Positions 14,528 to 21,273 of a stretch of 36,477 nucleotides of DNA are shown one piece after another. Made by a program: the position numbers and the translations under genes. Source of the stretch: an uncultured Selenomonadaceae bacterium (lineage in GTDB: Bacteria > Bacillota > Negativicutes > Selenomonadales > Selenomonadaceae); assembly GCA_902777615.1 (NCBI GenBank), contig CACYUQ010000001.1, positions 1 to 36,477 on the forward strand, in the 5' to 3' direction. The notes under the pieces are model-generated. The model did not search any database, was not told the origin of the DNA, and saw only the letters and a program-made list of their open reading frames with translations. Position 1 is the stretch's first letter; each line of letters begins with the position of its first letter.

Positions 14528-15001
14528 TTATTTCGCCATCTTGCGGATGACGTCCTGCGTGATGTCCGTACCGCCATAAACGACAGAACCTTTGTCAATG
14601 ACGACCTGCAGACCTTTCGCCTCGGCGACTGCCTTGCACTCGGCCTCGATTTTCTTCTGGATCGGCTCGATCAGGGACTGCTGCTTCTGCGCCAGCTTTT
14701 CCTGCGTCTGCTGGTAGAGATTCGCCTTTTCTTCCTCGCTCATGTTTGCGGACTTCGACTCGAACTCATTCTTGGCTTCCTCAACGGCAAGCTGCATTTT
14801 CGTGTTCGCGTCCTGCAGGTCCGTGGACTGCCCCATGACCTGACGGAAATCGACGACGCCGACGCTGGTGGAAGCCGCCGAAGCCGTGCCGCCGACCATG
14901 CCGCCCATCTGCGTCAACGCCAGCGCAACAACGCTGCCGACAAACACAACGGCAATCGCGATGCTAAAAATCTTGATGTGCTTCTTTTCCAATTTGATCA
15001 T
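14528..15001 (-). CDS. OmpH/Skp-family periplasmic chaperone
   Basis: 157 residues from the ATG at 15001, which has AAAGGAGAC upstream. A further in-frame start at 15034 lacks a ribosome binding site. An N-terminal membrane segment (IFSIAIAVVFVGSVVALAL) acts as signal or anchor. The Skp body follows: VGVVDFRQVMGQS, a coiled coil (residues about 60-125), then GLQVVIDKGSVVYGGTDITQDVIRKM. It is the first gene of the envelope operon and its size is normal for Skp. Together with the next two genes it forms a tandem family of three. Confidence 0.88.
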   Translation of the reverse strand: MIKLEKKHIKIFSIAIAVVFVGSVVALALTQMGGMVGGTASAASTSVGVVDFRQVMGQSTDLQDANTKMQLAVEEAKNEFESKSANMSEEEKANLYQQTQEKLAQKQQSLIEPIQKKIEAECKAVAEAKGLQVVIDKGSVVYGGTDITQDVIRKMAK

Positions 15002-15054
15002 TTTCCTGTCTCCTTTTGTTCCCGTGAACTCCACGGTTGTTTTGCATCGTTGAC

Positions 15055-15083: not shown

Positions 15084-15202
15084 TGGAAAAGGGAAATTTA
15101 AAACCTCCAAACCACGCGCACGCCACTGTAAAGTTTTCGATGGCCCCCGCTTCATCGTGTATCTTGCTCCTGTCCACACACCATGTATACACACTCTCCC
15201 TC

Positions 15203-15231
15203 TTGACAAGAAACAAAAAACGCGCTATCTT
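15203..15231 (+). promoter_or_regulatory. Promoter of the amt-PII gene
   Basis: TTGACA (15203-15208) and TATCTT (15226-15231) are separated by 17 nt. Transcription should begin near 15238, about 275 nt ahead of the coding region. Confidence 0.75.
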
Positions 15232-15240
15232 AGGCACATG

Positions 15241-15331
15241 ATTTTCCGTCGTCCGGGCGGCGGGAAATGACATAGGGAAACGGACATCGGCGTCCGGCGT
15301 GAAGGTTCATCTTCGCGCCGGACGCTTTTTT
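15241..15331 (+). promoter_or_regulatory. Two-hairpin attenuator leader (ANTAR-type layout) ahead of amt-PII
   Basis: Hairpin 1 has an 11-bp stem (15241-15251 with 15258-15268, some G-U pairs) and the six-base loop TCCGGG. Hairpin 2 has a perfect 5-bp stem CGGAC/GTCCG (15281-15285, 15292-15296) and the six-base loop ATCGGC, with A at position 1 and G at position 4. A terminator with a 15-bp stem (15290-15304 with 15311-15325) and six T (15326-15331) shares bases 15290-15296 with hairpin 2, so the two cannot form together. Two hexaloop hairpins of which the second excludes a terminator is the known target layout of ANTAR-domain antiterminators, which often control nitrogen genes. The first loop has U rather than A at position 1, a deviation. 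No ANTAR gene is in this window. Confidence 0.65.
15290..15331 (+). terminator. Strong intrinsic terminator inside the amt-PII leader
   Basis: A 15-bp stem with one G-U pair and a 6-nt loop, followed by TTTTTT, lies about 50-95 nt after the start point and 180 nt before the ATG. Full-length amt mRNA therefore needs readthrough. Confidence 0.88.
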
Positions 15332-15511
15332 GTGAAAGCACTTAACGCACGCGAGCGTTAGCGAAGCGCAAGTTCAGTGCGACACATGCCTGACCGCTTA
15401 ATGAGGCCAAGCGATAGCGAGGGCTGAATATAGCGGGCATGGCGCTGTTTCCCGCGAGCCTTTGCGTGAACCGGTCGCGTGAAGCGTGAATTGGAAGAAA
15501 GGTGAGGACTT
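15332..15511 (+). other. Remaining amt-PII 5' leader
   Basis: No open reading frame of note lies here. A small hairpin, TAACGC-ACGCGA-GCGTTA (15343-15360), also has a six-base loop, but its fourth base is C. The AGGTGAGG ribosome binding site lies at the end. Otherwise I see nothing definite. Confidence 0.4.
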
Positions 15512-17287
15512 ATGAAACGGATTTTTCGATGTATGGCTCCGGCGTCGATGATCGGCGCTTGGCTTTTGGGGCTTCCGGGTATTGCTCTGGCGGCGGATAG
15601 CGCACCCGCGCGGTACGCGGCTGCCGATACGATTTGGGTTCTTTTGGGCGCGGCGCTGGTATTTTTCATGCAGCCGGGCTTCGCGATGGTGGAAACGGGA
15701 CTGACCCGCGCGAAGAACGCAGGCAATATCGTCATGAAGAACGTGATGGACCTTTGCATTGGCACGATCGCGTTCTGGGTGGTCGGCTTCGGGCTGATGT
15801 TCGGCACGGACGTCGGCGGCTTTATCGGAATACCGGACTTTTTCATTTCGGGATGGGATGTCGGCGCGGACGCCGGCTATCCGAAAATGGCATTTATCAT
15901 TTTCCAGACGGTCTTCTGCGCGACGTCGGCGACGATCGTCTCCGGTGCGATGGCGGAGCGCACGAAGTTCTCGACGTACTGTGTCTACAGTCTCGCCATC
16001 AGCCTTTTGATTTACCCGGTCAGCGGCCATTGGATCTGGGGCGGCGGCTGGCTCGCGGAAATGGGTTTCCATGATTTCGCAGGCTCCACGGCGGTGCACA
16101 TGGTCGGCGGTGTCTGCGCGCTGATCGGTGCGAAAATCCTCGGTGCACGCATCGGTAAGTATGACGAGGACGGCACGGTGAACGCGATTCCTGGCCACAG
16201 CCTGACGCTGGCGGCGCTCGGCGTGTTCATCCTCTGGTTCGCGTGGTTTGGCTTCAACGGCTGTTCGACGGTCTCGATGACCGGCGACGAGACGCTGGAG
16301 ACGGCGAGCCTGATTTTCGTCACGACGAATATGGCGACGGCGGCGGCGACTACGACGGCCATGATTTTGACATGGATCCGCTATGGCAAGCCTGACGTTT
16401 CGATGACGTTGAACGGCTCTCTGGCCGGACTCGTGGCAATCACGGCGGGCTGCGACCTCGTCAGCGTCGGTGGTTCGTTCGCCATCGGCGTGATTGCAGG
16501 CGTCACGGTCGTCTTTGCCGTGGAGTTCATCGACCAGAAGCTCAAGATCGACGACCCGGTGGGCGCGGCGGCGGTGCATGGCGTCTGCGGCGCGCTGGGC
16601 ACGATTCTTACGGGACTCTTCGCAGTCAAAGACGGTCTGCTCTACACGGGCAAGACGGATTTTTTCTTCACGCAGGTGCTTGGCGTCGTCAGTGTCGCGG
16701 CGTTCGTCGCCGTGATGATTACTATCGTATTCACCGTCTTGAAATCGACGATGGGGATTCGCGTGACGGCGAAGGAAGAAATCGTCGGCCTCGACTATGA
16801 GGAGCATGGTCTCGCGTCCGCTTACGCCGACTTCATGCCGACGCCGGAAACGCCGGGCACCACCGCAGCTCCCGCGCCGGTCGGGCAAGCGACGCCGCCT
16901 GTGGTCCCGACGATTCGACCGACGGACGGCCATGCGCTGACCCGCGTTTCCATCATCACGTCGCGAGAGCGGTTCGAGCCGCTGAAGGCCGCGCTGGAGC
17001 CTCTCGGCATCACGGGCATGACAGTCACGCAGGTGCTTGGCTACGGACTCCAGAAGGGTCATACGATGTACCGAGGCGCTCATGTCGCGTCTAGACTCCT
17101 GCCGAAAGTCAAAGTTGATCTCGTGGTGTCGGCGATCCCGCCGCAGGAGATTATCGAGGCCGCAAAACGCGCGCTCTATACGGGACACTACGGCGACGGC
17201 AAGATTTTCGTCTCCGCGGTGGATAACGTGATCAAGATCCGCACGGGTGAAGAAGGATTCGACGCGTTGCAGGATAAAGAAATATAA
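15512..17287 (+). CDS. Ammonium transporter fused to a C-terminal PII signalling domain
   Basis: 591 residues. A signal peptide (cleavage after IALA, about residue 27) precedes an 11-helix Amt/Mep/Rh channel to about residue 425. Channel residues D188 and H196 (HDFAGSTAVHMVGG) and H356 (AAAVHGVCG) correspond to E. coli AmtB D160, H168 and H318. A Pro/Thr/Ala-rich linker (about 430-474) leads to a complete PII domain (about 476-585) with LQKGH, PKVK, GDGKIFV and IRTGE, so nucleotide binding is likely kept. In normal cells a separate GlnK trimer plugs AmtB under nitrogen excess; here sensor and channel are one chain. The T-loop is one residue shorter before YRGA, and the uridylylation Tyr51 is Val. 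The leader suggests control by transcription attenuation. Confidence 0.93.
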   Translation: MKRIFRCMAPASMIGAWLLGLPGIALAADSAPARYAAADTIWVLLGAALVFFMQPGFAMVETGLTRAKNAGNIVMKNVMDLCIGTIAFWVVGFGLMFGTDVGGFIGIPDFFISGWDVGADAGYPKMAFIIFQTVFCATSATIVSGAMAERTKFSTYCVYSLAISLLIYPVSGHWIWGGGWLAEMGFHDFAGSTAVHMVGGVCALIGAKILGARIGKYDEDGTVNAIPGHSLTLAALGVFILWFAWFGFNGCSTVSMTGDETLETASLIFVTTNMATAAATTTAMILTWIRYGKPDVSMTLNGSLAGLVAITAGCDLVSVGGSFAIGVIAGVTVVFAVEFIDQKLKIDDPVGAAAVHGVCGALGTILTGLFAVKDGLLYTGKTDFFFTQVLGVVSVAAFVAVMITIVFTVLKSTMGIRVTAKEEIVGLDYEEHGLASAYADFMPTPETPGTTAAPAPVGQATPPVVPTIRPTDGHALTRVSIITSRERFEPLKAALEPLGITGMTVTQVLGYGLQKGHTMYRGAHVASRLLPKVKVDLVVSAIPPQEIIEAAKRALYTGHYGDGKIFVSAVDNVIKIRTGEEGFDALQDKEI

Positions 17288-21082: not shown

Positions 21083-21273
21083 GATGGAGTCCAAAATGCC
21101 GTACACAATATATGCCTAAACCTGCATGTGCAGGTGGGTACCCTAAGTCTTGTTTTTGTTCCTCGCGTCGAGGCGATCCAACAGCCGCAAGCTCAATTCG
21201 GGTTCCCGTTTGTGAAGAAGTCGGTTAGACACCTATATTTGCTTACGCACATCCCAGACGGCTCCGTCTTTAT
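21083..21273 (-). ncRNA. ssrS: Probable 6S RNA
   Basis: This is an untranslated minus-strand gene with its own promoter and terminator and an expected length near 190 nt. The two ends form a closing stem: GTCTGGGATGT (21259 to 21249) pairs over 11 positions with GCATTTTGGAC (21099 to 21089). This recalls the TCTGAGATGTTCGCAAGC/GGCATCTCGGAG closing stem of E. coli 6S. Near the 3' side, ACCCACCTGC-ACAT-GCAGGTTTAGGC forms a hairpin (21120-21135), as in the terminal part of 6S RNAs. Between lie weakly paired stretches suiting the promoter-like bubble. 6S RNA binds sigma-A RNA polymerase and dampens transcription in stationary phase. I identify it by structure, not by alignment. Confidence 0.7.

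Follow-up and report, generated by a model that had tools for sequence, protein, structure and literature searches.

How is the synthesis of an ammonium transporter switched off, and on again, in a rumen Selenomonas-like bacterium that carries an RNA off-switch element in front of the transporter gene? The element lies in a stretch of 36,477 nucleotides, referred to here as the window. A sequence-only reading had proposed that two hexaloop hairpins, the second overlapping a terminator, form at this site the target layout of ANTAR antiterminators of the EutV type. It was reported previously, from a covariance search, that ANTAR elements precede genes of ammonium transporters, PII proteins and glutamate synthases (PMC3369931); control of amt genes by ANTAR proteins as such is therefore already known. 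The classical model requires both hexaloops (PMC3369931; PMC8934654): deletion of the first hairpin, P1, abolishes induction of eutP in E. faecalis (PMC3369931), and both loops are held necessary for antitermination (PMC8934654). Crystallographic work showed that hexaloops are bound singly, one per ANTAR dimer, and redefined the single hexaloop as the minimal site (PMC8934654). Since both hexaloops have been held necessary, a working attenuation site with one hexaloop is not an established thing.

Architecture of the amt leader

Features of the locus are listed in Table 1. From the position of the promoter, transcription is expected to start at about 15238, which places the beginning of hairpin 1 approximately three nucleotides into the predicted transcript, as the sequence-only reading had it. 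Hairpin 1 is formed by pairing of 15241-15252 with 15257-15268 and is followed, after a linker of 12 nt, by the second hairpin, P2. The arms of the terminator occupy approximately 15289-15305 and 15310-15326, with a T-run at 15326-15331, and positions 15289-15296 are common to P2 and the terminator. The predicted fold of the leader (15225-15345) has an energy of -51.4 kcal/mol, better than that of any of 200 dinucleotide shuffles (z = -4.8). The OmpH-like gene upstream is divergent (14528-15034, minus strand); as it points away from amt, the terminator can be assigned to the amt transcript. In the encoded protein, Pfam places PF00909 at 42-434 and PF00543 at 477-580, and TIGR00836 scores above its cut-off. 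The dispersed repeat that separates the terminator from the start codon is present in one congener (L025) and absent from three others (L023, L024 and L027).

Table 1. Features of the amt locus (coordinates refer to the window)
Feature	Position	Strand	Basis
TGTATACA box, upstream of promoter	15184..15191	.	same place in 8/8 congeners and in sister genus
Sigma-70 promoter: TTGACA (15203-15208), 17 nt, TATCTT (15226-15231)	15203..15231	+	sequence; same promoter in 8 congeners
Hairpin 1, 12-bp stem, CCGG tetraloop	15241..15268	+	fold; 8/8 congeners
P2, CGGAC[AUCGGC]GUCCG, ANTAR hexaloop with A1 and G4, antiterminator hairpin	15281..15296	+	sequence, scan
Intrinsic terminator, 15-16 bp stem, U-run, 5' arm overlapping P2	15289..15331	+	fold, scan
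Dispersed repeat, about 110 bp, between terminator and start codon	15335..15448	+	second copy G000:C75:3231-3341, 77% identical
amt-PII fusion gene (ammonium transporter, PII domain at its C-terminus), regulated gene	15512..17287	+	Pfam, TIGR00836

The TGTATACA box is found also upstream of the promoter of the glutamate-synthase leader in the same genome (L253, about 4003-3994, minus strand), and 22 of the 82 amt leaders from Negativicutes contain TGTATAC, against about 2 expected. This distribution suggests that it is probably the site of a second regulator, one acting at the DNA level.

At both gathering and permissive thresholds, Rfam returned tRNAs and a 6S RNA located elsewhere in the window (21084-21263, minus strand; RF00013, 77 bits, E 1e-13), and nothing at the site itself. 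Leaders of 10 loci gave no Rfam match either, and a literature search on ANTAR in Selenomonas yielded unrelated matches only.

The P2 hexaloop is conserved

The AUCGGC loop with A1 and G4, read originally from the letters as overlapping the 5' arm of a terminator, is confirmed by sequence, fold and scan. When both strands were scanned for an A1/G4 hexaloop (stem of at least 4 bp) on the 5' arm of a terminator, 15281-15296 was the only case in the 36-kb window. Within the genus the loop has the form A-NN-GGC, in which A1, G4, G5 and C6 are fixed while letters 2 and 3 vary (UC, CA, CU, GA); positions 1 and 6 (A and C) are unpaired in all eight genomes, and the terminator arms change around the conserved hexaloop.

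For a broader view, sequences preceding amt were gathered at the level of genus, family and class, and also from named genomes, chiefly Clostridia. In the first 153 leaders the strongest terminator near the gene was located first, and any hexaloop on its 5' arm was sought afterwards. Such a loop was present in 117 leaders, and the best one had A1 and G4 in 88 of them, compared with about 7 expected from a chance level of 1 in 16 for random loop letters, many of the leaders coming from related species and not being independent. Counted singly, G4 occurred in 103 and A1 in 91 of the 117. In some leaders missed by the script (L110, L118, L119 and L181, for example) an A1/G4 hexaloop could be seen by eye, and loops of this kind overlap amt leader terminators throughout Negativicutes and Clostridia. 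An exception is genus g21, where the first letter of the P2 loop is G in three of four genomes (L177, L178, L179) and G4 is kept. The missing A1 weighs against an ANTAR target; it also fits the structural claim that A1 is uncontacted, the crystal structure revealing direct contact to G4 and none to A1 (PMC8934654).

Hairpin 1 is not a hexaloop

Hairpin 1 had likewise been taken for a hexaloop, with G4 kept and U at position 1, and thus for a possible variant ANTAR target. In the eight genomes of the genus holding the gene, its loop as first read is UCCGGG, CCCGGG or UCCGGA, and positions 1 and 6 form a standard pair in every case (U-G, C-G or U-A, respectively). Because these positions always pair, they constitute one extra pair of the stem and leave a CCGG tetraloop. 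A search allowing up to three mismatches returned one copy per genome, each time before amt. The extra closing pair speaks against the variant-target reading, as do the sister genera, in which the loop is of the CUCGAG or CUGCAG type, and the glutamate-synthase element described below, which has no hairpin 1. As regards conservation in orthologous amt leaders, the expectation of the sequence-only reading held for the second loop and failed for the first.

A 5' hairpin with CUGCAG in a 9-nt loop, two nucleotides before it and one after, occupies the position of hairpin 1 in 15 Selenomonadaceae leaders (L178 representing also L179 and L180, to which it is nearly identical). Of the 60 cells for its four closing pairs, 49 are paired. 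The shuffle mean was 27.8 and none of 5000 shuffles reached 49, in a test that leaves relatedness in, with stems that differ strongly between genera; sliding by one lowered the count to 20. Covariation thus supports the CUGCAG hairpin as an RNA element. Reading it as a concealed ANTAR hexaloop, [NCUGCA], was also tried and rejected: the preceding base is A in just 5 of 15 leaders, and since it is not kept as A, no hidden ANTAR loop is present. A family-wide search for the CTGCAG-P2-terminator pattern gave leader-like matches which, where they could be placed, all precede amt; the remaining rows, not each checked, resemble chance matches, many in coding-like sequence. The hairpin has no match in Rfam and no description in the literature searched, which comprised open-access papers only and makes this weak evidence of absence.

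Other palindromic loops are CUCGAG in a sister genus (L169), YCCGGR (CCCGGG or UCCGGA) in the genus of the window, and GCGCGC in most of genus g67, which belongs to another family. Loops of L248, L220, L225, L217 and of the f33 and f4 leaders are not palindromic, and GNRA-type loops occur in other lineages as well. Self-complementarity of the loop is thus frequent, not universal, and the argument from palindromes rests on few independent changes. The best reading of hairpin 1 is that of a promoter-proximal accessory hairpin, with a loop that, if U-G is admitted, is self-complementary in this genome, as it is in several related genera. As first guesses at its role, it might protect or insulate the 5' end, or engage in RNA-RNA (kissing) contact; a role as pause hairpin was considered as well.

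One hexaloop instead of two

A P1 of the EutV type is an upstream A1/G4 hexaloop separated by a linker of about 5-12 nt, and hairpin 1 does not have that loop. The same holds more widely. Within 40 nt upstream, another A1/G4 hexaloop with a stem of 4 bp or longer was found in 1 of 56 distinct Negativicutes leaders, against 1.8 expected, and in 1 of 34 other leaders, against 1.0. Relaxing the search to 3-bp stems gave 7 of 56 (5.5 expected) in Negativicutes and 3 of 34 (2.5 expected) in the others, the expectations, like the shuffle mean for the CUGCAG hairpin, being derived from mononucleotide or row shuffles, which keep relatedness in. Five of the seven relaxed matches come from close relatives in one genus and overlap the CUGCAG hairpin, so that they are not independent. 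In several genera P2 lies directly behind the promoter, with no hairpin before it. In several genera of family f15 (L234-L244), the hexaloop-terminator unit is situated, again with no preceding hairpin, between amt and an upstream gene that we take, by its C-terminus PTYGELLFGVN, to encode glutamine synthetase. As a second hexaloop was looked for and not found, the site is a variant and not a standard member of the ANTAR targets; of the layout recognized in the sequence-only reading, the conserved P2 and terminator stand, together with the regulator described below, and the first A1/G4 hairpin does not.

A different arrangement was observed in other Negativicutes (L255, L263, L266, L268, L038 and L043), in which two tandem hexaloop-terminator units, 47-111 nt apart, precede amt. 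By its organization, this is a putative double attenuator.

The genome encodes a single ANTAR regulator

The search for a two-component ANTAR regulator, suggested earlier as a check, was successful. The genome encodes exactly one ANTAR protein (contig C73), composed of a receiver and an ANTAR domain, and its gene adjoins that of a kinase with GAF_PdtaS, PAS and HisKA_2 domains, i.e. of the PdtaS/EutW type. In comparison with PDB entries the protein matches, over its length, EutV (6wsh, 1.6e-43) and Rv1626/PdtaR (1.3e-53). Aligned to 6wsh, the protein is identical to EutV at R142, K143, K149, Y164 and M172, residues described as contacting RNA or as needed for its binding (PMC8934654), and has R in place of K147. 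In EutV, Y164 stacks on G4, and the role proposed for M172 is to keep out smaller loops, tetraloops among them (PMC8934654). Judged by domain architecture, the designation EutW/EutV-type is right for the proteins, and the ligand sensed need not be ethanolamine.

The kinase-regulator pair lies directly behind two genes presumed, from protein sequence, to encode L-serine dehydratase (L251, 4979-8542, minus strand), an enzyme that releases ammonium. The two genes are linked to amt-PII in congener G009, where they follow it in the order kinase, ANTAR regulator, with the glutamate-synthase genes in front. ANTAR genes were detected in 52 of 60 relatives and in 43 of 45 genomes of good quality. G054, intended as a control lacking ANTAR, has amt-type hexaloops and no ANTAR gene that could be found, possibly through incompleteness (it is 87% complete), and decides nothing.

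Further targets

A hexaloop, GGC[AACGGG]GCC, with a terminator lies upstream of the glutamate-synthase operon of the same genome (C22:3919-3862), without hairpin 1, and in G009 the genes for kinase and regulator are preceded by GGC[AATGAG]GCC and a terminator. The presence of such elements before these genes suggests a small nitrogen regulon with self-control. A pattern search of the genome for a hexaloop followed by a T-run yielded no more than the reversed control did, and most of its matches were due to chance. Among the matches listed and examined, convincing leader terminators were those of amt and glutamate synthase only, so that further targets may exist outside that list; the genome is a fragmented draft. 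One candidate (G000:C40:420-476), a hexaloop on a terminator, was set aside as probably fortuitous, being located behind the end of a gene.

Discussion

We consider it highly probable that the site is a single-hexaloop, ANTAR-controlled transcription attenuator with a promoter-proximal accessory hairpin; P2, the terminator and the regulator carry the ANTAR part of this reading. By default, RNA polymerase starting at about 15238 would stop at the terminator, at about 15331, and as a consequence of this stop the gene of Amt-PII would be off. The GAF/PAS-HisKA_2 kinase would sense a signal, probably related to nitrogen, and phosphorylate the receiver-ANTAR protein, a dimer of which would then bind the P2 hexaloop of the nascent RNA. 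Bound P2 would hold the 5' arm of the terminator, and transcription would read through. Hairpin 1 would play no part as a second ANTAR site.

One alternative is that hairpin 1 is a variant P1 (U1, G4), a recruitment hairpin bound first by the same ANTAR dimer. The layout and spacing do match those of eut (hairpin 1, a 12-nt linker, P2 on the terminator), and with G4 being the contacted base, a G4 loop devoid of A1 is not impossible. However, closure of the loop by positions 1 and 6 in all eight congeners makes it a tetraloop, and A1 and Met172 have been argued to exclude cross-loop pairs and tetraloops (PMC8934654). Moreover, neither A1 nor the size of a hexaloop is kept in sister genera (CUCGAG in L169, the 9-nt CUGCAG loop elsewhere), and many amt leaders, like the glutamate-synthase element, manage without hairpin 1, so that we regard a dual-hexaloop target as improbable. 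Somewhat better placed, though still rather doubtful, is the idea of a kissing-loop element, in which two leader RNAs, or a leader and another RNA, would pair loop to loop and tune the attenuator or the terminated short RNA. The covariation-supported CUGCAG hairpin of the 15 Selenomonadaceae leaders argues in its favour, as does the fact that changed loops are often palindromic again (L169, the genus of the window, most of g67). On the other hand, the non-palindromic loops of L248, L220, L225, L217, f33 and f4 do not conform, the UCCGGG loop of the window is palindromic only if U-G pairs are admitted, strict maintenance of CUGCAG on a drifting stem suggests recognition of sequence beyond self-pairing, and trans pairing between nascent leaders is kinetically hard.

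Hairpin 1 could also act as DNA, being an inverted repeat recognized by a repressor near the start site rather than an RNA element. In the genus it is indeed a near-continuous dyad with its centre approximately 17 bp from the start, but its half-sites differ at no fewer than three positions, all of them G-U in RNA, the palindrome of the CUGCAG leaders lies half a base off the stem axis, and its distance from the -10 box ranges from about 16 to 45 nt; such an operator seems quite improbable. Two further explanations would dispense with the ANTAR protein, and both appear very remote. A riboswitch, binding a ligand in place of a protein, would account for a conserved hairpin of the CUGCAG class and a terminator in front of a nitrogen gene, but no meaningful Rfam match appears at the site at E values up to 10, no conserved core has the size of an aptamer, and the A1/G4 hexaloop of P2 is kept across clades devoid of hairpin 1. 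An ordinary constitutive terminator, or that of the upstream gene, bearing a hexaloop by chance, would be consistent with its strength and GC-richness; against it stand the divergent orientation of the OmpH-like gene, the promoter just before the hairpins, and a hexaloop that persists while the terminator arms change.

A single-hexaloop attenuator shares with the eut attenuators governed by EutV/EutW in Enterococcus, Listeria and Clostridium (PMC3369931; PMC8934654) the receiver-ANTAR protein, the HisKA_2 kinase, the RNA-contacting residues and an A1/G4 hexaloop over the 5' arm of an intrinsic terminator, and differs from them in having one such hexaloop, a tetraloop hairpin 1 and target genes for ammonium transport and assimilation. 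The elements reported in PMC3369931 precede the same class of genes and overlap terminators in the same way, but the model that detected them had two hairpins, each with A1/G4 in its loop, whereas the sites described here have no first A1/G4 hairpin. The NasR/nasF and AmiR/amiE leaders also represent ANTAR antitermination of nitrogen genes, with other sensor domains and with a dual hexaloop (as described in PMC3369931). One-hexaloop ANTAR attenuators as a class-wide rule were not found in Rfam or in the literature searched, weak evidence given that it was open-access only; published searches use two-hairpin models and would have missed them.

It is conceivable, although we put it forward only tentatively, that single-hexaloop ANTAR attenuators are the form which amt leaders take in Negativicutes and that, in addition, the classical recruitment hairpin has been replaced in Selenomonadaceae by a new conserved element, a hairpin whose apical loop (CUGCAG or one of its palindromic substitutes) is self-complementary and which would act by loop-loop pairing of leaders or by binding a second factor. 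In the dimer-initiation (DIS) hairpin of retroviruses, a 6-nt palindrome sits in a loop of 9 nt, preceded by two bases and followed by one. The CUGCAG leaders of related genera have the same loop geometry; there is no common descent, the loop in the window is YCCGGR, and the likeness on our side is one of sequence.

The switch in front of this ammonium transporter thus appears to have one of the two textbook binding hairpins, and a different conserved hairpin in place of the other. With one hexaloop, it seems, an entire bacterial class controls the uptake of ammonium and, in this genus, glutamate synthase and the genes of the regulator itself as well. Natural attenuators hence offer a direct test of the proposal, made on structural grounds, that ANTAR proteins need no more than one hexaloop as their minimal site.
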